Shown piece by piece: positions 16,525-35,460 of a DNA stretch of 64,000 bases. This DNA is from Hyunsoonleella aquatilis. GTDB lineage: Bacteria > Bacteroidota > Bacteroidia > Flavobacteriales > Flavobacteriaceae. The position numbers and the translations under genes were made by a program. The notes under the pieces are model-generated. The model saw only the letters and a list, made by a program, of their open reading frames with translations, was not told the DNA's origin and did no database searches. The stretch lies in contig NZ_JACNMF010000001.1 in NCBI RefSeq assembly GCF_014270105.1, positions 62,001 to 126,000 on the forward strand, in the 5' to 3' direction. The stretch's first letter is position 1. The number at the start of each line of letters is the position of its first letter.

Positions 16525-19374
16525 CTATCTTTTCAGTGTAATATGGCCAGTTATTTTTCTTCCTTCAACCACAATTACGTACCAGTAATCTCCCGTAGGA
16601 AGCTGTTGGTTTTTAAATGTGCCATCCCATTCAAAAGGGGTGTTTGCAACATTCTTTAACAACTTTCCGTACCGATCAAAAACAGAAACTTGAAAACTGC
16701 CGAACTCTTCTATGCCCTGCAGGTTGAAAGTATCGTGATATCCATCATTGTTTGGAGTGAAGAATTTTGGTACGAAAAAATGCAACCATTCAGTGGTAAC
16801 GGTTCCATCGCAAAATTCATTTTTGACATGAATGGTATAAAGCCCTCCTTCAACGTTATAAAATACATTATCGGTTTGAAAATTTCTACCATCAAGTGAA
16901 TACAAATGGTTACTATTTTCTCCAGCTGAGACTACAATGTCATTGCCATCAGAATATACCTTTTCAATTTCTGGCTCTTCCAAAAATGTGACATCAAAGA
17001 ATGTGGTTTCAAAAACACAATCTTTACTGTTAGACACCTCGACGAAAAAACTGCCTGATTTGTCAATTGGTATCGCGTCAGTTTGGGCTCCAGTACTCCA
17101 CAAGTAAGTAGGATTTGGAATTGCTGTATTGGCAAATAGAACTGGGGTGTCAGTGGCGCATAAAATAATATCTTCTTCAAAAAAAACTTCGGTCTTGGTT
17201 CCTGAAACGGCCCAACTACACGTTGCATCATCAAAAATAGTTGTTTGCCAACATTCCAAAGTAGGAGGTAAGGGTTTTGTTCCAGCTATCTCCCATGCAC
17301 ACGAAAAATTATTAAAGGTTATAACTTCCCAGCACTCCTGTGCCACTGGCTTATCGGGTTGATGTCCGGATACTTGCCAAGCGCATAAATCAGAATCAAA
17401 AGTCGCCGTTTCCCAACATTCTAAAGCCGGTGCGTCGGGTTTTGTTCCTAAAACATCCCATTCGCAAGTATTATTATTAAATTCAGTGGTTTCCCAACAT
17501 TCCAAAATGGGTGGTTCTGGTTTATCACCAGAAACATCCCATGAGCAGTTGGTATGATTGAAGGTCGCCGTTTCCCAACATTCCATGTCAGGTAAATCAG
17601 GCTGTTCACCTTGGACATCCCAAACACAGGTTGTTTCATTAAAAGTAGTGGCCTGCCAGCAATTGAGAATGGGCTGATGTGGCTTAGTGCCGGAAACATC
17701 CCACGAACAAGTAGTATCATTAAAAACCGCAGATTCCCAGCATTCCAGTGACGGCTGCACAGGTTGTGTTCCCGATACTTCCCAAATACAAGTAGTATCA
17801 TTAAACGCAATGGTTTCCCAACAGTTAATGACAGGTTGGTCAGGGCGAGTTCCCACGACATCCCATGAGCACGTGGAATTATTAAAAATAGCTGACTCCC
17901 AACATTCCATTGCTGGTTGTACGGGCTGTTCTCCAGTCACCTCCCATATACAAGTTGCGTTATTAAAAGAGGCTATTTCCCAACAATCAATAACAGGCTG
18001 GTCAGGTTGGCTTCCCGTGACCTCCCAAGAACAGGAAGTAGTATTAAAATTTGCGGATTCCCAGCACTCCAAATCTGGCTGAGGGGGTTGGCTTCCCGTG
18101 ACTTCCCAAACACAAGTAGTAGTATTGAAAGTTGCGCTTTCCCAACAATCTATTACTGGTTGGGTCGGACGAGTACCCGTTACGTCCCAAGAGCAAGTTG
18201 AGGAGTTAAAACTAGCGGACTCATAACATTGCAGTGATGGCTTTGGTGGTTGGGATCCGGTTACCTCCCATAAACATGTGGCACTATTAAAAGTGGCAGT
18301 CTGCCAACAATCTATAGCGGGTTTCTCAGGCTTACTTCCCGTTATCTCCCACGAACAGGTTGTGTCATTAAAACTAGCTGACTCCCAACATTCCAAAACG
18401 GGTTTTGGCGGGGCATCAATGATCTCAACCTCAAAAACATCCGAAATTGTGTAACATTTGTCGTTGGACAAATTGCTTTCTACCTCGGCAACTTTGGTTC
18501 TGTAAAATGTGCTTGAGTTAATACCAGAAACAGTAACTGCTTGATTGTTAGCTCCAGGAATATCGATCCAGTTTAAACCATCATTACTTTTCTGCCATTG
18601 ATAAAAATGAGAGCTATAAACTGAACCATCAGAATTTGCACTTATAGTAGTGGCATAGGGTGTTTGAGTACTGCAAACGGAAATTCTGTTATTTACCCCG
18701 TCTGAAATACTGGTAATATCCCCACAGGCTTTGAACTCAATATCATCAAGAGCCAAATCATTACCAAAACCTTTTTCTCCATTATTAATGATCTTTAAAA
18801 CGATTGAAGTTTGCCCTGGAAACGTTTGAAAAATAAGGCCATACTCTCTCCAAACAGGAGAAATGGTTGAATGTATATCACCTGTATTTCCTGAAGCTAA
18901 AAGATTCGTCTCCGTATCATCCCAGACCTGAAACGTAACGTTAACAGGTATAGGAACCAAATTGGTATTTGCATTTAAAGGCACCAGGTTAAGCATCCAT
19001 GACGAAAACTCGTAAGTGGTTTTTTCGCATAACCCGGATACTGGGACTCTAATAAACTCCCCCAATTCATTATCAGCATTTACTAGCATAGAGCGGCCAT
19101 TAACATCATTTGGTGTATGGTCCTCGACGTCAAACCATGTAAAATACCTAGTAAAACTTGATAACGTATAAAATCCATCCAAAGGCCTACCGTTAGCATA
19201 AGCATATGTAGTAGTGCCTGATGACAAAATCGCATTATCAAATCCAGTACCAAAATCCTCCTTATAGATTGGGTCGCCAGAACTTCCTGAGCAAAACCCC
19301 AATTGAGCATTTAAATGGGTTGGTAATTGAAATATTAGAATGAGGGATAATATATTGGTATATCGCCTAAGCAC
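16525..19374 (-). CDS. Large secreted protein with 15 two-cysteine repeats and T9SS type B sorting domain
   Basis: This is a 949-residue protein with a signal peptide (1-23). Residues ~25-300 hold a beta-sandwich-like N-terminal domain (IYKEDFGTG to LALDDIEFKACGD, carbohydrate-binding-like) and an Ig-like segment. About fifteen tandem 27-residue repeats follow (one is 28), consensus xPxLECWExAxFNxxTCxWxVxGxxP, each with two cysteines 11 apart. The last ~90 residues are the gliding-motility-associated type B sorting domain (KFFTPNNDGYHDTF to GDYWYVIVVEGRKITGHITLKR). It should be exported through T9SS and form a surface or secreted stalk, with one disulfide possible per repeat. A paralogue with 8 repeats is at 22007-24328. 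Adhesion is inference. Confidence 0.9.
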   Translation of the reverse strand: MLRRYTNILSLILIFQLPTHLNAQLGFCSGSSGDPIYKEDFGTGFDNAILSSGTTTYAYANGRPLDGFYTLSSFTRYFTWFDVEDHTPNDVNGRSMLVNADNELGEFIRVPVSGLCEKTTYEFSSWMLNLVPLNANTNLVPIPVNVTFQVWDDTETNLLASGNTGDIHSTISPVWREYGLIFQTFPGQTSIVLKIINNGEKGFGNDLALDDIEFKACGDITSISDGVNNRISVCSTQTPYATTISANSDGSVYSSHFYQWQKSNDGLNWIDIPGANNQAVTVSGINSSTFYRTKVAEVESNLSNDKCYTISDVFEVEIIDAPPKPVLECWESASFNDTTCSWEITGSKPEKPAIDCWQTATFNSATCLWEVTGSQPPKPSLQCYESASFNSSTCSWDVTGTRPTQPVIDCWESATFNTTTCVWEVTGSQPPQPDLECWESANFNTTSCSWEVTGSQPDQPVIDCWEIASFNNATCIWEVTGEQPVQPAMECWESAIFNNSTCSWDVVGTRPDQPVINCWETIAFNDTTCIWEVSGTQPVQPSLECWESAVFNDTTCSWDVSGTKPHQPILNCWQATTFNETTCVWDVQGEQPDLPDMECWETATFNHTNCSWDVSGDKPEPPILECWETTEFNNNTCEWDVLGTKPDAPALECWETATFDSDLCAWQVSGHQPDKPVAQECWEVITFNNFSCAWEIAGTKPLPPTLECWQTTIFDDATCSWAVSGTKTEVFFEEDIILCATDTPVLFANTAIPNPTYLWSTGAQTDAIPIDKSGSFFVEVSNSKDCVFETTFFDVTFLEEPEIEKVYSDGNDIVVSAGENSNHLYSLDGRNFQTDNVFYNVEGGLYTIHVKNEFCDGTVTTEWLHFFVPKFFTPNNDGYHDTFNLQGIEEFGSFQVSVFDRYGKLLKNVANTPFEWDGTFKNQQLPTGDYWYVIVVEGRKITGHITLKR
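17240..18415 (-). repeat. Array of ~15 tandem 81-bp coding repeats
   Basis: These bases encode the 27-residue ECWE...TCxW units of the surrounding gene. Copies differ at many positions, so the array is old but still recognisable at DNA level. Unit period is 81 bp, with one 84-bp unit near the 5' end of the array on the plus strand. Confidence 0.85.
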
Positions 19375-19658: not shown

Positions 19659-22010
19659 ATGAAGCCAGTAATTGCCCGCTTAAAAAAACATAAAATCAAA
19701 TCTGCCATTTTGGCTCTGCTCTTAATTGCATATTATTTCTGTTTGCCGAATCAATTATTTGAAGATCCAACCGCTACAGTAATTTCATGTTCCAAAAATG
19801 AATTGTTGGGGGCACAAATTGCAAGGGACGGCCAATGGCGCTTTCCTCACAATGATTCGCTTCCCGAAAAATTTAAGACCTGTATCATTCAATTTGAAGA
19901 TGAATATTTCTATGAGCACCCAGGTTTTAATCCAGTGTCTATTTTTAAAGCATTAAGGGAAAACCTAAAATCAGATGGTATAAAACGAGGGGGAAGCACT
20001 TTAACTCAACAGGTAATACGATTGTCGAGAAAAGGCCAAAAGCGTACCTATTTAGAAAAGTTGAAGGAACTTATTTTAGCTACCCGATTAGAGCTAAGAG
20101 AAAGAAAATCCAGTATTCTGACACTTTATGCCAGCAATGCACCCTTTGGAGGCAATGTTGTGGGCTTGGATGCTGCGTCTTGGCGCTATTTCAATCGAGA
20201 CCCTAATGCGCTATCATGGGCAGAGAGCGCCACATTGGCTGTTTTGCCCAACGCACCAGGTTTGATATATCCCGGTAAAAATCGCGAACGATTACAAAAA
20301 AAGCGAGACCGCCTTTTGAAAAAGTTATTGAACAATAAAATTATAGATTCGCTCACCTACCAATTATCCATTGCCGAGGAATTACCTGAAAAACCATATC
20401 CTTTACCTCAAATTGCGCCCCACTTGCTTCAAAACATAGCAAAATCGCACCACGGAAAAAACATCCGAACTTCTGTAGATATACAACTTCAAAATCAAAT
20501 CAACCATATTGTTAAAACGCATTACAGGCATTTAAGTCAAAATGAAATTTATAATGCCTCCGTACTTGTTCTTGATGTTCAAACCAGAAAAGTTCTGGCT
20601 TATGTGGGCAATACACCAACGGATAGGGCGCACCAAAACCATGTGGATATTATAGACAAACCAAGAAGTACAGGTAGTATATTGAAACCCTTTTTGTATG
20701 CGGCTATGCTTGATACAGGCGACTTACTTCCCCATACACTAATACCAGATGTTCCTACTCAATTCGGAAACTATAATCCAGAAAACTTTGACAAAAGCTA
20801 TAATGGAGCTGTTTCTGCCGGTAAAGCATTGTCTAGGTCTCTAAATGTGCCGGCAGTCCGTATGTTACAAAATTTTGGCCTAGATAGGTTTCATCATTAT
20901 TTAGAAGATTTAAAACTGAAAGATTTGAAATTCAACGCTAATCATTACGGCCTCTCTTTGATTTTGGGGGGAGCGGAAAGCAACCTTTGGGATTTGTGTA
21001 AAAGTTATGCCGCACTTTCCTCCACCTTGAATCATTTTACCGAAACCTCCAGCGAGTATTATTCAAATGAGTTTTGTGAGCCTACATATTTAAATTCTGA
21101 AACTATAGATTTTGGTAAAAAGAAAGGCGAGAAAACCCTTTTTGATGCAGGTTCTATTTATTTGACATTCGAAAGTATGAAGGAGGTCAACCGTCCTGAA
21201 AGTAATGAAAGCTGGGAGTTTTTTGATGGCTCAAAACAGATTGCATGGAAAACTGGCACTAGTTTTGGGTTTCGGGATGCCTGGGCCATCGGCACCACCA
21301 AAGATTACGTGGTAGGCGTTTGGGTGGGCAATGCTGACGGTGAAGGGCGGCCCGGTTTGGTGGGCGTACAAACTGCAGCTCCAATCCTTTTTGATGTATT
21401 TGACGTACTGCCCAACAGCGATTGGTTTGCTATGCCTTATGATGAAATGCAAATAGTTTCAATTTGTCAGCAAAGTGGACATAGGGCTTCTCCGAATTGT
21501 GATGAGGTGTCGGACAATTATATTCAAATTAGTGGATTGAAAACGCCTCCTTGCCCATACCATGTTCTGGTACATTTGGATAAAAATGAAACACATCAGG
21601 TAAACACCTCTTGTGAAGATATTTCTGAAATTAAGCATAAATCTTGGTTTGTATTACCTCCTCTAATGGCCCATTATTATAAAACCAAAAACCCATTCTA
21701 CAAACCTTTACCTAAATTCAGAGACGATTGCTCTGCAGCACAGGTAGCTTCTATTGATTTTATCTATCCAAATGCTAATAACAGCATTTTTCTGCCTAAG
21801 GATTTTGATGGCGAAACCAACGACCTTATTCTAAAAGTAGCGCATTCAAAACCCGAAAGCACATTGTTTTGGTATATAGATGAAACGTTCATCGGCACCA
21901 CAAAAGACATTCATGAATTGGGCATTAAACCAGATTCTGGTAAACATACCATTACCGTAGTAGATGAATTTGGGAATGAAGCCAAACGAAACTTTGAAAT
22001 AACACTCTAA
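19659..22010 (+). CDS. pbpC: Penicillin-binding protein 1C, peptidoglycan glycosyltransferase/transpeptidase
   Basis: The product is 783 residues, the usual PBP1C length. An N-terminal membrane anchor (~14-31) is followed by a GT51 glycosyltransferase domain (catalytic-type FEDEYFYEHPGF, then RGGSTLTQQVIRL). The transpeptidase domain has the SxxK motif SILK in RSTGSILKPFLYAA, an SxN motif SLN in LSRSLNVPAV, and KTGTS in AWKTGTSFGFRDAW. A C-terminal BiPBP_C-like beta domain ends the protein. It polymerises and may crosslink peptidoglycan at the periplasmic face. The usual neighbour, an alpha-2-macroglobulin gene, is not present. Instead pbpC sits between two giant secreted paralogues on the other strand, and its stop overlaps the stop of the downstream one by 4 nt. 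Confidence 0.96.
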   Translation: MKPVIARLKKHKIKSAILALLLIAYYFCLPNQLFEDPTATVISCSKNELLGAQIARDGQWRFPHNDSLPEKFKTCIIQFEDEYFYEHPGFNPVSIFKALRENLKSDGIKRGGSTLTQQVIRLSRKGQKRTYLEKLKELILATRLELRERKSSILTLYASNAPFGGNVVGLDAASWRYFNRDPNALSWAESATLAVLPNAPGLIYPGKNRERLQKKRDRLLKKLLNNKIIDSLTYQLSIAEELPEKPYPLPQIAPHLLQNIAKSHHGKNIRTSVDIQLQNQINHIVKTHYRHLSQNEIYNASVLVLDVQTRKVLAYVGNTPTDRAHQNHVDIIDKPRSTGSILKPFLYAAMLDTGDLLPHTLIPDVPTQFGNYNPENFDKSYNGAVSAGKALSRSLNVPAVRMLQNFGLDRFHHYLEDLKLKDLKFNANHYGLSLILGGAESNLWDLCKSYAALSSTLNHFTETSSEYYSNEFCEPTYLNSETIDFGKKKGEKTLFDAGSIYLTFESMKEVNRPESNESWEFFDGSKQIAWKTGTSFGFRDAWAIGTTKDYVVGVWVGNADGEGRPGLVGVQTAAPILFDVFDVLPNSDWFAMPYDEMQIVSICQQSGHRASPNCDEVSDNYIQISGLKTPPCPYHVLVHLDKNETHQVNTSCEDISEIKHKSWFVLPPLMAHYYKTKNPFYKPLPKFRDDCSAAQVASIDFIYPNANNSIFLPKDFDGETNDLILKVAHSKPESTLFWYIDETFIGTTKDIHELGIKPDSGKHTITVVDEFGNEAKRNFEITL

Positions 22011-24328
22011 CGTTTCAAGGTAAAGTGCCCAGTAAATATTTGATTCTCTATCGTAATAACATACCAATAATCACTACTTGGCAAATCCTCTCCATTTAAA
22101 GTGCCATTCCAACTAAAGGGACTATTTCTTGAAAATTTGAGTAACTTCCCATACCTATCATAAATTGAAACCTCAGAGGTGCTGAAATATTGAAGTCCGG
22201 ATAAATCGAAAGTATCGTTGAAACCATCATTGTTTGGCGTAAAAAATTTAGGAATGTAAAAATGCCGATGTTGCAGAACGCTTTCGTCATCACAGTTGCT
22301 ATGTTTCACTACCACTGTATACAATCCTCCGTCAACATTAAAAAAGGTATTATTTGACTGAAAAGAAATGCCATCTAATGAATACATAAAATCTCCCGTA
22401 TGAGAAGTGTTGACAATAATTTCGTTGCCATCTGACATAATACTTTCGATTACCGGTTTTTCTAAAACTTCAACATTAAAAATCTGGGTCTCAAAAGTAC
22501 ACGACCCACCTGTAATTTGAACTTCATATCTACCTGAGGCTTCCACGTCAATATTACTGATTGTTTCTCCCGTACTCCATAGGTATGTAGGGTTTGAAAT
22601 ACTGGTTTGAGGCTGTAGAGTCAATTCATCTCCTTCACACAGCTCAAAATCCTCTTCAACGGTGGTTCCGGGTTGTGTTCCTGAAATTTCCCAGGCACAA
22701 GAAGACGCATTAAAGGAAGCGGTCTCCCAACATTCTAGAGTTGGCATAGTAGGCTGATTTCCAGAAACATTCCATGAACAAGAGGTGTCATTGAAAGTGG
22801 CGGTCTCCCAACATTCTATAACTGGTTGGGATGGTTGCGTTCCAAAAACGTCCCAAGAGCATGTTGCAACATTAAACATTGCAGTTTCCCAACATTCCAG
22901 CACGGGCTGTTCTGGCTCGGTACCCGATACTTCCCAAGTACAGATAGTGTTATTAAACATTGCAGTTTCCCAGCATTCCAAAGTGGGTTGTAATGGCTGG
23001 CTACCAGTAACATCCCAAGCACAATTTGTGGTATTAAATGTGGCGGTTTCCCAACATTCAAGTGTAGGTTGTACTGGTTGCGTACCCGATACTACCCATG
23101 CACAACTTGCAGCATCAAAAGTAGAAGTTTCCCAACACTCCAACATAGGTTGTATTGGCCTGGTTCCCGATACTTCCCAGCTACAGGTGGTGGTATTAAA
23201 AGTAGCTGTTTCCCAACATTCCAACGATGGCATTACCGGCTGGGTTCCAGTAACGTCCCACGAACAGGTAGTTTCATTAATAGTGGCCATTTCCCAACAA
23301 TTCAAAAGGGGTATTGAAGGTAATTGGTTTACTGTAACCCGATATTCGTTTGAAAAGGAAACGCATAATGCATTGGATAAATTGACTGCAACTTCCGCTA
23401 TTTTTGCCCTGTAGTATGCCGTGCTAGAAACAGAAATACTAAGAGTTTGATTGTTTTCTCCTGGCAGATCATTCCATGTAGCGCCATCATCCGTACTCGA
23501 TTGCCACTGATAAAAATGTGAGCTGTAGACCGCAAAATCGGGCAAAGCATTTAAAGTTGTTGCAAAGGGAGCTTGTGTACTGCACAGATTCTGAGCACTC
23601 CTATTTGAAGTATCCGTTACCGTCACAGTGTCTCCACAGGATTTAAACTCAATATCGTCAATGGCCAAATCGTTGCCACACCCTCCTTGCCCATTGTTTA
23701 TCATCTTGAGAATTACTGTGTTTTGTGCGGACAATGTTTGAAAGACTAGTCCATATTCACGCCAAATTGGTGTGGCCGTTTCCACAATATTTCCGGTATT
23801 ACCGCTTGCCAATAAATTGGTATCAGTGCCATCCCAAATCTCAAATCTTACATTTATCGGAATTGTCCCGCCTGGCTGGGTTGAGCAAAAGGTATTGGCT
23901 ATTACCAAATTTAGTACCCAAGCCGAAAATTCATAGGTTGTTGTCTCGCACAACCCTGTTACTGTTGTTCTGTAGAACTCTCCCGCAGTAGCTGCTGCGT
24001 TAACCACAAGAAATTTCCCATCCACATCATTTGGCGTATGATCTGTAATACCATGCCAATTGAATGAGTTTCCAAATGTATTGTTGGTTACGGTATAAAA
24101 CCCGTCTACAGGGTATCCCGATGCAAATGGATAGGTAGTCGTCCCGGTCGGAAGAGAATTGTTAATCGTACCCGTGCCAAAGTCTTCAGTAAAAATCGGA
24201 TCTCCAGAATTACCAGTACAAAAGCCCAGTTGGGCTATTGCATTTTGAGAAAATGCTAGAACTGCAATTATCCCAAATAATAGTGCAGGACAAGTATTGC
24301 CTTTTGCGTTAGTATTGTAGAACATCAA
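22007..24328 (-). CDS. Large secreted protein with 8 two-cysteine repeats and T9SS type B sorting domain
   Basis: The product is 773 residues, a clear paralogue of the 949-residue protein at 16525-19374 along its whole length. It has a signal peptide (cleavage near QNAIA/Q), the same N-terminal sandwich (LGFCTGNSGDPIFTEDFGTG to LAIDDIEFKSCGD) and an Ig-like segment. Eight tandem 27-residue repeats then carry the ECWETATFNxTTCSW core. An Ig-like linker and a type B sorting domain (KFFTPNNDGFNDTFDLSG to IFTGHFTLKR) follow. The repeat number is about half that of the paralogue, which suggests stalk length changes by repeat gain or loss. Export through T9SS is expected. Confidence 0.9.
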   Translation of the reverse strand: MMFYNTNAKGNTCPALLFGIIAVLAFSQNAIAQLGFCTGNSGDPIFTEDFGTGTINNSLPTGTTTYPFASGYPVDGFYTVTNNTFGNSFNWHGITDHTPNDVDGKFLVVNAAATAGEFYRTTVTGLCETTTYEFSAWVLNLVIANTFCSTQPGGTIPINVRFEIWDGTDTNLLASGNTGNIVETATPIWREYGLVFQTLSAQNTVILKMINNGQGGCGNDLAIDDIEFKSCGDTVTVTDTSNRSAQNLCSTQAPFATTLNALPDFAVYSSHFYQWQSSTDDGATWNDLPGENNQTLSISVSSTAYYRAKIAEVAVNLSNALCVSFSNEYRVTVNQLPSIPLLNCWEMATINETTCSWDVTGTQPVMPSLECWETATFNTTTCSWEVSGTRPIQPMLECWETSTFDAASCAWVVSGTQPVQPTLECWETATFNTTNCAWDVTGSQPLQPTLECWETAMFNNTICTWEVSGTEPEQPVLECWETAMFNVATCSWDVFGTQPSQPVIECWETATFNDTSCSWNVSGNQPTMPTLECWETASFNASSCAWEISGTQPGTTVEEDFELCEGDELTLQPQTSISNPTYLWSTGETISNIDVEASGRYEVQITGGSCTFETQIFNVEVLEKPVIESIMSDGNEIIVNTSHTGDFMYSLDGISFQSNNTFFNVDGGLYTVVVKHSNCDDESVLQHRHFYIPKFFTPNNDGFNDTFDLSGLQYFSTSEVSIYDRYGKLLKFSRNSPFSWNGTLNGEDLPSSDYWYVITIENQIFTGHFTLKR
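22670..23315 (-). repeat. Array of 8 tandem 81-bp coding repeats
   Basis: These bases encode eight 27-residue ECWE...TCxW units. The units are more alike (ECWETA recurs in nearly all) than those of the paralogous array at 17240-18415. Confidence 0.85.
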
Positions 24329-30297: not shown

Positions 30298-30930
30298 CTA
30301 TGGCTTAAAATATTTAATAGCATAATTCACTAACCCTGTATTGCTTTTAATGCCCAACTTTTTATGGATGTTCTTGCGGTGGGTATCTACAGTGAATTTG
30401 CTTAATTTCAGTTGTTTTGCCATTTGTATAGAGGTTCTTCCTTTTACGATGAGTTGCAAAATTTCGGTTTCCCGTTTGGTGAGTTCTGATTGTAGTGCTG
30501 TTTTTTCCTCGTTAAACCAATCTTGGATACTTTCGGGAAGGTTTTTGCTAAAGTAGTATTCACCTTTTACGAGGGTGTTGATGGCCAATTCTAGTTCATC
30601 TTTATCCACATTTTTCGTAACGTAACCTTTGGAACCAACATCCAGCATTTCGGTAACGTCCACAGTTTGGTCAAACATGCTCAATGCCAAAACTTTGATG
30701 TTTGGGTACTCTGAAGTAAGTCGTCTCGTTAGCCCAACACCGTCCAAAATGGGCATACGGATATCCGTGATGATGATATCGGGTTTTAATCCGTTTTCAA
30801 GCAATTTTAAAACTTCCAACCCATTATTGGCCTCCCCGATAACTTCAACGTTCATCACTTTTTGCAGAATGGATTTTATTCCATCTATAAAAAGTTGGTG
30901 GTCGTCGGCTATAATCACATTTATGGTCAT
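30298..30930 (-). CDS. LuxR/NarL-family response regulator
   Basis: The product is 210 residues. A receiver domain (~3-120) has the acidic pocket ADD at 8-10, phospho-acceptor Asp56 in IIITDIRMP, and conserved S/T and K (LALSMF, YVTKNVD). A LuxR helix-turn-helix (~145-205) contains LTKRETEILQLIVKGRTSIQMAKQLKLSKFTVDTHRKNIHKKLGI. Its start overlaps the kinase stop by 4 nt (ATGA), so kinase and regulator are a coupled cognate pair. The nearest candidate DNA site is the 12-bp dyad at 33780-33807, which has a NarL-like 7-2-7 arrangement. Confidence 0.96.
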   Translation of the reverse strand: MTINVIIADDHQLFIDGIKSILQKVMNVEVIGEANNGLEVLKLLENGLKPDIIITDIRMPILDGVGLTRRLTSEYPNIKVLALSMFDQTVDVTEMLDVGSKGYVTKNVDKDELELAINTLVKGEYYFSKNLPESIQDWFNEEKTALQSELTKRETEILQLIVKGRTSIQMAKQLKLSKFTVDTHRKNIHKKLGIKSNTGLVNYAIKYFKP

Positions 30931-32852
30931 AATGGAATGTTTAAAATTACAGTTGTACCATTGCCTTTGGCTGTGTCAATCACAACATCGCCCTGCATTT
31001 TTTCAACGCGTTTTTCAATATTGATTAAACCTATCCCTGATTTTTGGCGGTTAAGGTCAAAACCTTTCCCGTTATCTTCTACAATAATGTTGAGCATATC
31101 ATCATCTTCTGAAAACTGGATGGTGGCTTCGGTGGCTTCTGAATGTTTTATAATGTTGGTAATCAATTCTTGTATAATCCTAAAGATTTGAATTTCAATG
31201 TTGTTTTCAATGCGTTTTTTAACATCAATATTGATGACATCTATTTTTATTTTTTTGGTTTCTGAAATTTGGTCTGCAATAGCCTTAGTTGAAGGGATTA
31301 AGCCACTGCTGATTTGCGCCCCGAAGTTTTTGTTTTTTGAAATATTTCTAATCTCGTTATAGGTATCCCCAATCAAGGTTTTTAATTTTTTGTAATGATT
31401 TGAAAAGTCTTCTTTTTCATCATAGCTCTCCAAAAATAACTTTAGGGTAGCTACTTTGCTACCTAAATTATCATGCAGTTCCGCGGCCATTTTAGAGCGT
31501 TCTTTTTCCTGGGCTTCCAAAATGTTGTCAATACCCTCCAGTTCTTTTTCTTGTAGCAACTGGTCAAAATCCTGCTCTTTTATCTTCAGGTTTTGTTGCA
31601 TAATGATGCGTTTTCGCTTTGCGTTTTTCTGCAAGAAGTAAAGGGAAACAATAGCTAAGGACAATGCTAATAACGCCCCAATGAATAGATAAAAATTCTG
31701 TTTGCGTTTATAATCTACTTCAAGATTTTCTGTTTCAAGTTTTAAAATTTCATTTTCTTTTTTTTCGGTTTCGTACTTGGTTTGTATTTCCAGGAAGCTC
31801 TTTTGGTTTTCAACATTAAGAATGCTATCGTTTAGCGTATTGGATTTTTTCGCATACTCAAAGGCATTTTCCATTCGCCCTATTTTAGAATAGGCTTCAC
31901 TTAAATTATTATACACCGAAACGAGTTGTTTTCCTTTAAGGGTCTTTTCGGCTTTTTTAAAATAATTGATGGCGGTAGCATAATCTTTGTTTTTTAGATA
32001 GGTGTACCCTAAATTGTTTTGTGCTACTTCTATTCCAGATTTCAAATTTAACTCGTCCTTTAATTGCACAGTTTTTTCTAAGTATGTCCTGGCTTTTTCA
32101 GGATTACTGTCAAGAAACAGTTCCCCCAAATTGTTGTAAATGATGGATAGCGAACGTTTGTCACCAAGTTCGGTAGCCAATTTTTCAGCATCGGTGTTGT
32201 AGGCTATGGCTTTTACGGTGTCGCCGTTTTTGTAATGTTGGGTGGCCAAATTTGGCAACGTTATCAGCCTAAAACGGGTCTGGTTTAAGCTTTCAAAAAT
32301 ACCAAGTGCTTTTTCGCTGTACTCAATGGCTTTTGGATAGAGCTCCAGTTCGGCAAAAGCACTGGCGATGTTGCTGTAGCACTTTGCGGCGTTTAATTTG
32401 TCGTTTGTTTTTTCAAAAAAACTGGCACTTTCTGTTAGTGTGGCAATCGTTTTGTTGTAGTCGCCTTGTTTCAGTTGAATAGCACCAATACTAATATTGA
32501 TAATGGCAGCACGTTTGTCATCCTTTAATTTATGAAGAATGTTTTTTGAAGTATTGAAATAAAAGTAGGCAGAATCTAAACTGCCAGTGAAAAAATGAAA
32601 TCGCCCAAGCTGATTTGTAGTTTCGGCCAATAGTGAATCATTGGCTTTATAATGAAATGCTTTATGGGCGAAAACCATGCCCTTGTTTAAATCTACACGT
32701 TCGTGTGAATGCGCCAATTTTAAGTTGATTTTGGCCTTTTCAAAATCATTAGCAGTATGTTTTAATGTTTCTTTAAGGTCGCTTATTGATGCTTCTTGGG
32801 CCGTCAAGAAAAATGTTGAAAGAAGGATAAAGCAATTAATAAACGATTTCAT
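30927..32852 (-). CDS. TPR-containing sensor histidine kinase (HisKA_3 type)
   Basis: I chose the Met at 32852 (641 residues), not an in-frame ATG at 32882, because MKSFINCFILLSTFFLTA/Q is a clean signal peptide. Residues ~30-350 are tetratricopeptide repeats in the periplasm (NISIGAIQLKQGDYNKTIATL, AKCYSNIASAFAELELYPKAIEYSEKAL). One membrane span follows (FYLFIGALLALSLAIVSLYFL), then a coiled coil. The HisKA_3 dimerisation domain has the phospho-accepting His460 in MAAELHDNLGSKVATL, and the HATPase_c domain has ELITNIIKHSEA, VEDNGKGFD and GIGLINIEKRV. The TPR region probably senses an envelope protein partner. It is operonic with the regulator and with the upstream secreted protein. Confidence 0.95.
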   Translation of the reverse strand: MKSFINCFILLSTFFLTAQEASISDLKETLKHTANDFEKAKINLKLAHSHERVDLNKGMVFAHKAFHYKANDSLLAETTNQLGRFHFFTGSLDSAYFYFNTSKNILHKLKDDKRAAIINISIGAIQLKQGDYNKTIATLTESASFFEKTNDKLNAAKCYSNIASAFAELELYPKAIEYSEKALGIFESLNQTRFRLITLPNLATQHYKNGDTVKAIAYNTDAEKLATELGDKRSLSIIYNNLGELFLDSNPEKARTYLEKTVQLKDELNLKSGIEVAQNNLGYTYLKNKDYATAINYFKKAEKTLKGKQLVSVYNNLSEAYSKIGRMENAFEYAKKSNTLNDSILNVENQKSFLEIQTKYETEKKENEILKLETENLEVDYKRKQNFYLFIGALLALSLAIVSLYFLQKNAKRKRIIMQQNLKIKEQDFDQLLQEKELEGIDNILEAQEKERSKMAAELHDNLGSKVATLKLFLESYDEKEDFSNHYKKLKTLIGDTYNEIRNISKNKNFGAQISSGLIPSTKAIADQISETKKIKIDVINIDVKKRIENNIEIQIFRIIQELITNIIKHSEATEATIQFSEDDDMLNIIVEDNGKGFDLNRQKSGIGLINIEKRVEKMQGDVVIDTAKGNGTTVILNIPL

Positions 32853-32900
32853 AGTAAAGCAATTCCCTTCTAAGATAACCATTTTTCGAAATTAAAGGTT

Positions 32901-33737
32901 TTAATTGCTAGCACAACAATTACAGCCCGTTGCTTCGGTATCCAATTTTTGGGAATATGACCTAATTTCCGCCAAAAACACTTTGGTGTCAGGTGCTCTG
33001 TACATGCGTCGTTTCAGGTCTTTAAGGTAGCTGTCGCTTAAACAGTTGGATGCTTTTATATGGTTAAGAGCATAATCGATTGTTTTATCCATCCAGTCCC
33101 AGCCATAGCCTTCGTATGCGCCAATTTCTAATCCGTAAACTAATTTGCCCAGACCGAGCAAGGTATGGCAATTCACTTTTCCAGAGGCTCTCGGGCCTTC
33201 TTGGAAAACGTAAGTAACTTGATGTCCTGCGAAATCAAACCTAAATGCTGTTAGTGCGGCGTTTTTTTTCTTTGCGTACTTAAACGTATAGGTATGTGTG
33301 GTATGCCCCGGATACCAATCGTGCACACCAGAGGAACCGGCAGTAGTACTTACTTGCGATATATTGCCGTTATAGGTGTAATTAGGGTATTGCGCTATGC
33401 TTGTAACGTTATTTGATGTAAATACATTGGCAATTTTCCATTTGTAACCACAAGGAGTTTTACAATTTTTACAGGATAAGGTAATATTGAAGCTTTCGCC
33501 ATTTTGAAGCGTTGAAATATCCTTATCAAATCGCCAGGTTACGTTATATGTTCCTACACAGTTCGTCCTATAGCTACGGTTAAATGAAATACTGCCCCCG
33601 TATTGGTCGGCTTTTACGGAAGCCCTAAACCCTTCCTTTGAGGTTTTTTCAATGATATCAACTAGACTGATAACTTGTGCATTTATAGCAAATCCGAATA
33701 GGATTATAAATACTGAGGTTAAAATTGATGACTTCAT
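32901..33737 (-). CDS. Secreted protein of unknown function, cysteine-containing
   Basis: The product is 278 residues with a signal peptide (MKSSILTSVFIILFGFAINA/Q). I do not recognise the family. The central part (~40-175) is beta-rich, with the cysteine cluster CKNCKTPCGYKW and aromatic strands (HDWYPGHTTHTYTFKYAKKKNAAL, FDFAGHQVTYVFQEGPRASG). The C-terminal ~85 residues are helical and finish with a CNCCASN motif. It is 48 nt upstream of the kinase gene on the same strand, so it is probably the promoter-proximal gene of the two-component operon and a candidate sensed factor or output. Divergent lipoprotein genes share its promoter region. Confidence 0.75.
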   Translation of the reverse strand: MKSSILTSVFIILFGFAINAQVISLVDIIEKTSKEGFRASVKADQYGGSISFNRSYRTNCVGTYNVTWRFDKDISTLQNGESFNITLSCKNCKTPCGYKWKIANVFTSNNVTSIAQYPNYTYNGNISQVSTTAGSSGVHDWYPGHTTHTYTFKYAKKKNAALTAFRFDFAGHQVTYVFQEGPRASGKVNCHTLLGLGKLVYGLEIGAYEGYGWDWMDKTIDYALNHIKASNCLSDSYLKDLKRRMYRAPDTKVFLAEIRSYSQKLDTEATGCNCCASN

Positions 33738-33779
33738 AATATTAAGTTTTGAGATAAAACTAGTACGGTAAAACCAGCT

Positions 33780-33807
33780 TTCATATACCTACAATTAGGT
33801 ATATGAA
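33780..33807. promoter_or_regulatory. 12-bp perfect dyad, operator-like, between divergent promoters
   Basis: The arms TTCATATACCTA (33780-33791) and TAGGTATATGAA (33796-33807) are perfect reverse complements separated by CAAT. No T-run follows and both flanking genes point away, so a terminator is not needed here. The inner part gives heptamers TACCTAC and TACCTAA (reverse strand) spaced by 2, the 7-2-7 geometry of NarL-type sites. The centre lies ~45 nt before the start site implied by the lipoprotein -7 box. Confidence 0.7.
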
Positions 33808-33824
33808 CAATGGAAAATCAAAAA

Positions 33825-33832
33825 TAGATTTG
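33825..33832 (+). promoter_or_regulatory. -7 promoter box for the lipoprotein operon
   Basis: TAGATTTG matches TAnnTTTG exactly, 24 nt before the ATG at 33857. The expected -33 position overlaps the right arm of the dyad and has no TTG, which suits an activator-dependent promoter. Confidence 0.55.
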
Positions 33833-33856
33833 TATATCATCTTAAATTGAATTGCT

Positions 33857-34432
33857 ATGAAATCTCATTACATCTTATTAATCATTTGCGCGTTTACTTT
33901 TTTTGCTTGTGACGAACTGGACGAGCTACTTTTTGAAGAAGTTGAAGTTACAAGGTCGTTTACGAGATCAGTTTTTATAGATGAAGGTGCCGAAGAAGAC
34001 CCTGAAGCAGATGTTGGCTTTGCAGAGAGTGGAGGAGAAAATTTCTTTACAAATCTTGAAGTGGAAGGCATTGCAATCAGTAAGGATCAAATTAAAAAGA
34101 TTGAAATGCAAAGCGTAAAATATGAGTATAGAAACTTTAGTGGTAATGTAGATGCTAATTTAGACAGTACTTTTATGTTCGCTGTGGATTTAATAGGTAA
34201 TACTGAAAACTTTAATACGCCCAACCTAAATGTTGCCGAATCGGACCTTTTTAATACGCAGTATCAACTCTCGGGGGATTTTTCAAAGGTTAATGAAGTT
34301 ATGAGTTCAGCAGGAATTATAACGTACTTCTATTCAGGAACATTATCGCACAATCCCGCTATGTTTGAAGTAAGAGTAACGCTTACGGTGAGGATTACTG
34401 TATCGATTCCAGTAGATGAAATTGAAGCTTAA
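33857..34432 (+). CDS. Small lipoprotein, unknown function (paralogue 1)
   Basis: The product is 191 residues. MKSHYILLIICAFTFFAC is a lipoprotein signal (Cys18), followed by an acidic DELDELLFEEVEV stretch. The rest is predicted beta-rich with few aromatics, including IKKIEMQSVKYEYRNFSGNVDANLDSTFMFAV, and closes with alternating V/T strands (EVRVTLTVRITVSIPVDEIEA). It aligns in layout with the next gene (shared DELxEL start, I-x-x-I-E-x-x-S-V-x-Y motif, similar C-terminal strand), so the two are tandem duplicates. I do not recognise the family. It is the first gene of a three-gene operon, divergent from the two-component operon. Confidence 0.8.
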   Translation: MKSHYILLIICAFTFFACDELDELLFEEVEVTRSFTRSVFIDEGAEEDPEADVGFAESGGENFFTNLEVEGIAISKDQIKKIEMQSVKYEYRNFSGNVDANLDSTFMFAVDLIGNTENFNTPNLNVAESDLFNTQYQLSGDFSKVNEVMSSAGIITYFYSGTLSHNPAMFEVRVTLTVRITVSIPVDEIEA

Positions 34433-34443
34433 ATTATAGTATT

Positions 34444-35016
34444 ATGAAACATTTGAAGTATATATTGATATCCATTCCGATGCTGTTTTTAGTTTCGGGA
34501 TGTGATGAATTAGAAGAATTAATAGAAGAAGAGTTTGACATACAGACTACTTTTATTACCGAATTAGAAATTAATGTACCTAATGCGTCTTCTCCTGACG
34601 AGGCCGTAGATTTTACATCAAACTTTGGGTTTTGGGATTTCAGGAACGACCCCAATGTAAAAGAGGTGATTAGTGACCCTGATGAAATTACAAAAATCGA
34701 AATTAAATCAGTGCGCTATTTTTATAAGGATGTGGTAGGTAATGAAAACGCAAATGTTGTGGGTGATATGGTGTTTGTAGTTGGTCAAGGTGAAGAACGG
34801 TACGGTACGGTTCAAACGAATTTAAAGAATGCCGATTTTAATAATACGGCTTATACACTCAATGGTAATTTTGGGCCAGTTAATCAGGCATTGACTCAGT
34901 TTAAAACTATTGGATTCACGTATCAAGGCTCGGTTTCCGATAACCCCGTTAGGTTTATCACTGATGTTTCTATAACGGTAACAGTAACGATTAAGCCCGA
35001 TATTGATAATTTTTAA
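34444..35016 (+). CDS. Small lipoprotein, unknown function (paralogue 2)
   Basis: The product is 190 residues with a lipoprotein signal (MKHLKYILISIPMLFLVSGC, Cys20) and the acidic DELEELIEEEFDI stretch. It is a diverged duplicate of the preceding gene: ITKIEIKSVRYFYKDVVGNENANVVGDMVFVV and a final strand RFITDVSITVTVTIKPDI correspond to segments of its neighbour. It begins 11 nt after the previous stop. It is probably anchored to a membrane face in the envelope. No enzyme motif is seen and the function is unknown. Confidence 0.8.
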   Translation: MKHLKYILISIPMLFLVSGCDELEELIEEEFDIQTTFITELEINVPNASSPDEAVDFTSNFGFWDFRNDPNVKEVISDPDEITKIEIKSVRYFYKDVVGNENANVVGDMVFVVGQGEERYGTVQTNLKNADFNNTAYTLNGNFGPVNQALTQFKTIGFTYQGSVSDNPVRFITDVSITVTVTIKPDIDNF

Positions 35017-35028
35017 TTTTAATCACCT

Positions 35029-35460
35029 ATGAACATTTTCAGACCTCTTTTTTTAGTATTAGTTTTAATTTTTTCGTTCATATCTTGCGATGAAGATGAG
35101 GTGGAAAATTTAAGAGAAGCAACATTCACCGTGATTTTTTTAAATTCCGGCACCCAATTTTGTAACGAGGCGCAACTTACCATTAAAGTTCTAATAACCT
35201 ATCCGAACGGAAATCAGGAAACCCATACCGTAAACCCGTTTAATGAATTTGAAAAAACTTTACCCTTGGTAAGGGATAGTGAGTCCATCAATTTAAAAGT
35301 ATTCTTCCCGTCTTCAGAAGATCCTATTGCGGAAGCAAATATCCCGTTTATTTTTAACGGTGTTTCTGACGAAGCACTTGAACCGCCGGGTAATGAACTA
35401 TTGATAGAATATTGCCATAATTTGGACAATGGCATACGTTGGGATACATTTTATGAATAG
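35029..35460 (+). CDS. Small lipoprotein, unknown function
   Basis: The product is 143 residues. A signal peptide with the lipobox cysteine in FSFISCDEDE is followed by a beta-sandwich-like body (EATFTVIFLNSGTQF, AQLTIKVLITYPNG, SINLKVFFPSSEDPIAEANI). It shares the acidic post-cysteine stretch with the two preceding lipoproteins but not their body sequence. It lies 12 nt after the second one, so it is the third gene of the operon. Confidence 0.75.
   Translation: MNIFRPLFLVLVLIFSFISCDEDEVENLREATFTVIFLNSGTQFCNEAQLTIKVLITYPNGNQETHTVNPFNEFEKTLPLVRDSESINLKVFFPSSEDPIAEANIPFIFNGVSDEALEPPGNELLIEYCHNLDNGIRWDTFYE

Follow-up and report, generated by a model that had tools for sequence, protein, structure and literature searches.

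A symmetric candidate operator linking two divergent envelope-protein operons to a TPR kinase and a NarL-type regulator in Hyunsoonleella aquatilis

How might two operons that face away from each other across one short inverted repeat be controlled together, and by which regulator? The question is raised by a six-gene block in a 64,000-nucleotide stretch of the Hyunsoonleella aquatilis genome (contig NZ_JACNMF010000001.1, positions 62,001 to 126,000; the window, whose own numbering is used below). On the minus strand, the gene for a secreted, cysteine-rich protein of 278 amino acids (aa), here called SEC (32901-33737), opens an operon that continues with the genes for a 641-aa sensor kinase (30927-32852) and a 210-aa NarL/FixJ-type response regulator (30298-30930); on the plus strand stand three lipoprotein genes, LP1 (191 aa, 33857-34432), LP2 (190 aa, 34444-35016) and LP3 (143 aa, 35029-35460). 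Between the operons lies a perfect dyad of 12+4+12 nucleotides (nt), a strandless candidate operator at 33780-33807. The SEC and kinase genes are 48 nt apart, a value that follows from setting the kinase start at MKSFINCF rather than at the longer open reading frame (ORF), and the kinase and regulator genes overlap by 4 nt; this arrangement, with ORFs and dyad re-read from the sequence, agrees with an original prediction made for this DNA. We favor, with a probability of roughly 0.7, a reading in which the block encodes a two-component activator that regulates its own genes and uses a single symmetric operator to drive promoters placed back to back, with exchangeable envelope cargo.

Arms of at least 12 nt arose in 2 of 5,000 dinucleotide shuffles of the same 119-bp spacer, and ATACCTA-N4-TAGGTAT occurs without mismatch only once in the 3.93-Mb genome that contains the window. 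We compared ten orthologous kinase-regulator loci (G and L numbers label genomes and loci): that of the window, four reached through SEC (G217, G231, G018 and G671), one through the lipoproteins (G102), two through the kinase (G240 and G148) and two through the dyad pattern (G736 and G744). The core TACCTA-N4-TAGGTA, in the window TACCTACAATTAGGTA at 33786-33801, lies in the divergent promoter of the cluster at all ten. Because the window itself suggested the dyad, and G736 and G744 were found by means of it, the seven other loci constitute the independent test. The ten genomes hold 13 dyads in total, with a 16-bp core and TACC and GGTA ends, an inverted 7-2-7 arrangement in layout only. Some stand far from the kinase: the SEC gene of G018, on a separate contig, has a dyad of its own, and G102 has a further one, 158 kb away, 5′ of a cassette of a CFI-box gene and a small membrane gene, homologues of which (36% and 32% identical) stand behind their own dyad in G671, with the CFI-box above cut-off in both genomes. 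The cassette itself (L002 942-2356 and L097 7791-9201) encodes a secreted CFI-box protein and a small membrane protein, and its L002 copy has an NCGEN..H..D pattern. A terminator was rejected as an explanation of the dyad, which is A+T-rich and sits between diverging genes.

The dyad is also placed at a fixed distance from candidate promoters. The six fixed letters of the −7 box TAnnTTTG were scored at every offset between 5 and 59 nt from the core, with 25 directions in all: both ways at 12 dyads and one way at the G102 CFI-box site. At offset 23 the box scores at least 5/6 in 19 of 25 directions, compared with at most 2 of 25 at every other offset, and the genes behind these boxes are of several different kinds. 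In the window, the leftward box TAGTTTTA (33755-33762, minus strand, 5/6 matches) and the lipoprotein box TAGATTTG (33825-33832, plus strand, 6/6) each lie 23 nt from the core. Scores reach at least 4 on both sides at all 12 divergent dyads, and at least 5/6 on both sides at 7. A composite dyad-plus-box search allowing up to two mismatches returned 32 matches and found them in 10 of 11 genomes, G258 being the exception; every match with no or one mismatch is a promoter of this regulon, and two-mismatch matches elsewhere numbered 8, versus 17 for the reversed control. Conservation of the dyad at orthologous pairs, the fixed spacing on both sides and the recurrence at distant targets in G018 and G102 bear out the earlier proposal that the two operons probably have one regulator in common.

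Two known arrangements help to place this geometry. The heptamers bound by Escherichia coli NarL are inverted and separated by 2 bp, and the engineered site TACCCCTAAAGGGGTA, as given in PMC4549865, has the same length (16 bp) and the same TACC and GGTA ends as the window core. For activation of ogt1052, one NarL site placed 32 bp above the −10 element is enough (PMC9314961). NarL sites of the 7-2-7 type (ogt1052, napF, yeaR) and the window site thus have centers 31-32 bp from the −7/−10 element, the window value, counted from the −7 box, being 31 bp. Unlike NarL sites, however, the window site stands between two promoters that carry Bacteroidetes −7 boxes, and the regulator reaches 109.7 bits against the NCBIfam NarL model, whose cut-off is 250. 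The Bacteroidetes housekeeping promoter, with TAnnTTTG at −7, is matched on both sides of the dyad, but here the box is tied to a candidate regulator site at a fixed 23 nt.

The proteins that would act at this site form a conserved pair. The regulator matches Response_reg (85.9 bits) and GerE (61.6 bits), both over the Pfam cut-offs, and thus has a NarL/FixJ receiver and a LuxR-type helix-turn-helix (HTH). The kinase has TPRs (100.8 bits), a HATPase_c domain above cut-off (54.6 bits) and a HisKA_3-like region slightly below it (21.7 bits against 24), and ELHDNLGSK is visible in its sequence; a signal-peptide-like start and a single strong hydrophobic stretch (residues 389-407) suggest that the TPRs are periplasmic. 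Orthologues of the regulator in the nine other genomes are 50-71% identical and overlap or adjoin the kinase gene in every one. The ten kinases form one clade (support 100/100) against 13 other kinases drawn from a family-wide kinase search; within it the window kinase groups with those of G240 and G148 at 100/100, with an inner fork at 85/81. Among 299 family genomes, full-length kinase matches of at least 511 bits occur in seven (the window's own, G240, G148, G018, G217, G102 and G231), and the next-best match, a partial one, reaches 263 bits. The G148 kinase gene (L119 7966-9888) contains one in-frame stop, which may reflect inactivation or a sequence error. Elsewhere in the window's own genome, a paralogous kinase and regulator (L054 8914-11399; 37% and 40% identical) stand beside a LuxR-type HTH gene and ATACC-type dyads.

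The closest studied pair is FimS-FimR of Porphyromonas gingivalis, in which a periplasmic-TPR histidine kinase works with a regulator that activates surface-protein genes, and the signal of FimS is still unidentified according to PMC11053733. The resemblance is not one of equivalence: the window kinase scores 71.2 bits against the NCBIfam FimS model, far under its cut-off of 600, and FimR drives fimbriae, whereas no fimbrial genes were seen at the window locus, which has a symmetric divergent operator. The regulatory module is real and conserved, and its best reading joins a FimS/FimR-like TPR kinase to a NarL-type regulator.

These elements can be assembled into a mechanism. The TPR kinase, judging by its topology, would sense a periplasmic signal and, judging by its domains, would phosphorylate the regulator, a dimer of which would bind TACCTA-N4-TAGGTA, as co-conservation of the two suggests. 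Because the core lies 23 nt from the −7 box on both sides, one dimer would occupy about −42 to −44 of both divergent promoters, from where it could recruit RNA polymerase in both directions, replacing a weak −33 element. In Flavobacterium johnsoniae the −7 consensus was confirmed and the −33 consensus was not (PMC7366714), which suits an activator standing in place of −33. Leftward activation would raise SEC, the kinase and the regulator itself, a positive autoregulation, and rightward activation would raise LP1-LP3; in related genomes this regulator-operator pair would serve SEC, lipoproteins, PEGA-like, START-like, CFI-box plus small membrane, or FG-GAP proteins with a type IX secretion system (T9SS) tail.

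The same regulator and operator could instead repress, with the dimer blocking the −33 region of both promoters in a manner changed by phosphorylation. The dyad abuts the position where a −33 TTTG would lie, that tetramer immediately adjoins the core in 6 of the 25 directions, and at frdA a 7-2-7 site mediates repression by E. coli NarL (PMC4549865). We consider repression unlikely, however: TTTG is missing beside the core in the other 19 directions, which, like the fixed spacing on both sides, suits an activator in place of −33; the frdA repressor site lies at −4/+6, not near −42, according to the same paper; and FimS-FimR activates, as PMC11053733 reports.

What the switch drives differs among relatives. 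Lipoprotein genes are in the cluster at 8 of the 10 orthologous loci and SEC at 6, and both are present in the window, G217, G231, G671, G736 and G744. The G018 cluster combines lipoprotein genes with a START-like gene and an unknown gene, its SEC gene being on another contig; that of G102 combines them with a PEGA-like gene and an unknown secreted protein, and a family-wide search did not find SEC in the G102 genome. Genome-wide searches at E 0.001 found neither SEC nor lipoproteins in G240 and G148, where the gene facing the kinase encodes a protein of 631 or 639 aa whose FG-GAP repeat and T9SS sorting tail both score above cut-off. On the cargo side, the window, G102, G240 and G148 have a gene that we take to be polA-like; on the opposite side, the window and G240 have in common a TCCSGG.. 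protein and a DUF3179 protein (identified by Pfam in the window copy, matched by eye in G240), and G148 has others. Given these shared flanks and the grouping of the window kinase with those of G240 and G148, the cargo differs at apparently one ancestral site, and it looks as if it has been exchanged there. The cargo proteins look like envelope or surface proteins. The six-gene block as a single unit of inheritance was rejected, and the original prediction was wrong on a fixed block: SEC stands elsewhere in G018, the search of G102 did not find it, and those of G240 and G148 found neither SEC nor lipoproteins.

The wider distribution of the two cargo families was surveyed separately. SEC occurs in 5 of 299 family genomes, the window's own included, and in 1 of 12 genomes of the genus (its own); a contig scan confirmed one contig (L002, G671) among 39 candidate stretches, and an order-wide draw of 395 genomes returned the window's genome and one weak, partial match (E 3.9e-4). 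A lipoprotein profile matches 23 of the 299 family genomes at E 0.001; close matches (E ≤1.5e-42) are confined to five (own, G018, G102, G217 and G231), all of which have the kinase. SEC is 54-56% identical to six relatives and the kinase 42-45% identical to the same six; SEC may thus have entered the window lineage laterally, although constraint could explain the same gap.

This distribution bears on the further claim that the kinase TPRs have SEC or a lipoprotein as their ligand, making the block a self-contained envelope-sensing loop. Lipoproteins at 8 and SEC at 6 of the 10 loci favor such a loop, and in so far the association of accessory genes with the kinase stood; it broke down in G240 and G148, which retain the operator and a kinase 65% identical to that of the window (TPR part 63%, kinase part 74%) with neither SEC nor lipoproteins found, and, for SEC, in G102. 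Against seven more distant orthologues, the TPR part is 41-46% identical and the kinase part 47-50%; the TPR part is kept no better than the kinase part, and the sensor is therefore not specially conserved. SEC or a lipoprotein as a general TPR ligand is thus not supported; the built-in ligand was most likely wrong, and a self-contained loop seems to us quite improbable.

That SEC and LP1-LP3 belong to no recognized family was borne out: none of the four exceeds a Pfam or NCBIfam cut-off, and their assignment to a known family was rejected on that ground. A sequence search of the PDB gave no match for the lipoproteins and chance-level matches for SEC (best E 0.063, antibody chains), and, among the results listed, searches of open-licence PMC papers showed no report of the operator, SEC or the lipoproteins. 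The low-confidence SEC model (mean pLDDT 62) shows a beta-sandwich plus four helices, with no Foldseek match at E 0.001 and a best VIA-align Z of 6.8. LP2 is predicted to be a beta-sandwich (mean pLDDT 85); Foldseek returned 21 matches at E ≤0.001, those listed being viral capsids, and VIA-align placed FlhE first (Z 8.8, 2.7 Å over 108), followed by 8.7, 8.6 and 8.3, scores barely above the Z of 7-8 usual without a relative. The modeled likeness of LP2 to jelly-roll beta-sandwiches (FlhE, BcsB, viral candidates) is generic only. LP1 and LP2 are paralogues (32% identity, E 2e-23), and G736 has a protein 59% identical to LP3 in the same gene order. After the lipobox all three lipoproteins begin C-D-E, acidic and without a preceding K, Q or S, and they thus depart from the lipoprotein export signal described in PMC5080379 (K-(D/E)2 or Q-A-(D/E)2 after the cysteine in Capnocytophaga, SDDFE in F. 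johnsoniae); surface exposure is possible. A divergent SEC paralogue, about 25% identical, lies 3′ of the lipoprotein genes in G736 (L095 5601-6476).

Single-gene distant relatives of LP1/LP2, with starts such as CDEIDKLTEF.., were seen at L060, L061, L063, L064, L068 and also L067, with neighbors that we take to be fbaA/accD-like and rpsO/pnp-like genes. Eighteen genomes have distant matches only, and ten of these loci were read: they have no dyad, no SEC and no orthologous kinase-regulator pair, and were rejected as further copies of the module, and at three (L060, L061 and L069) another nearby ORF shows weak similarity to the kinase. By sequence, the distant relatives represent an unnamed lipoprotein family of wider spread.

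Several observations weigh against the autoregulated activator. The window's genome holds four further dyad sites at one mismatch, G217 holds one more exact site inside an ORF (L059), and a reversed-pattern control at one mismatch finds 2 sites each in G217 and G671. Strictly two-sided boxes are limited to the 7 of 12 divergent sites, and the G102 CFI-box site is one-sided, its box lying at offset 22 and the other direction scoring 2. The −7 boxes were assigned by their match to the consensus, close kinship among several of the genomes makes the 25 directions non-independent, and a dyad that covers the −33 region could act as a repressor site. Finally, the motif extends beyond this regulator: similar dyads lie near other LuxR-type genes in this and other genomes. 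This last observation would fit a dyad that belongs to another LuxR-type regulator, with the kinase-regulator pair merely its neighbor or target, but we judge that very improbable: this is the only regulator gene seen at all ten dyad-bearing clusters, its recognition helix is highly conserved across the orthologous loci compared, and the dyad is absent genome-wide, even at one mismatch, from G258, which has SEC (45% identical) but gives no kinase match at E 1e-60.

The similar dyads raise a broader possibility. The pattern AATACCTA-N4-TAGGTATT occurs at 44 sites in 25 of 397 family genomes. We read 25 of these, one per genome, and set aside five in genomes with the block; among the remaining 20, a −7 box of at least 5/6 stands at offset 23 in 16, each time on one side, and scores of at least 4/6 on both sides occur in 3, with other offsets reaching at most 3 of 42 directions. 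Strictly two-sided sites thus number 7 of 12 in blocks versus 0 of 20 elsewhere (Fisher p 2e-4, with a threshold picked post hoc and rows that are not independent). Dyads of the TACCCA/TGGGTA or TACCTA types adjoin LuxR-type HTH genes at L071, L076 and L079 and, in the window's genome, at L053 8111, L054 6550 and 8082, and L056 6242 and 7790; at several of these dyads a TAnnTTTG-like box lies exactly 23 nt off on one side. Across 148 genomes of the order, an exact composite search found only 3 matches, spread over 2 genomes, versus none for the reversed control; exact sites are therefore rare. These data could reflect a general, unrecognized promoter grammar of flavobacterial NarL/LuxR regulators, TACCYA-N4-TRGGTA followed at exactly 23 nt by TAnnTTTG, which this lineage would have doubled into a mirror-image two-operon switch with cassette-like cargo; the odds for and against this generalization seem to us about even.

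Outside the block, the window encodes two long proteins (16525-19374 and 22007-24328) in which a 27-residue (81-bp) unit of the type ECWETATFN..CSWEVSGTQP recurs in tandem; they are separated by a gene that is presumably penicillin-binding-protein-like.

To our knowledge, regulons have been described for few periplasmic-TPR kinases in Bacteroidota. Here, related bacteria appear to keep sensor, regulator and switch but to exchange the genes that are driven, and with cargo swapped in this way the ligand is to be sought beyond the neighboring genes. An operator-promoter grammar with exact spacing would allow cheap and direct prediction of targets and start sites and, if the general form of that grammar is true, one could read from sequence what many orphan flavobacterial LuxR-type regulators control.

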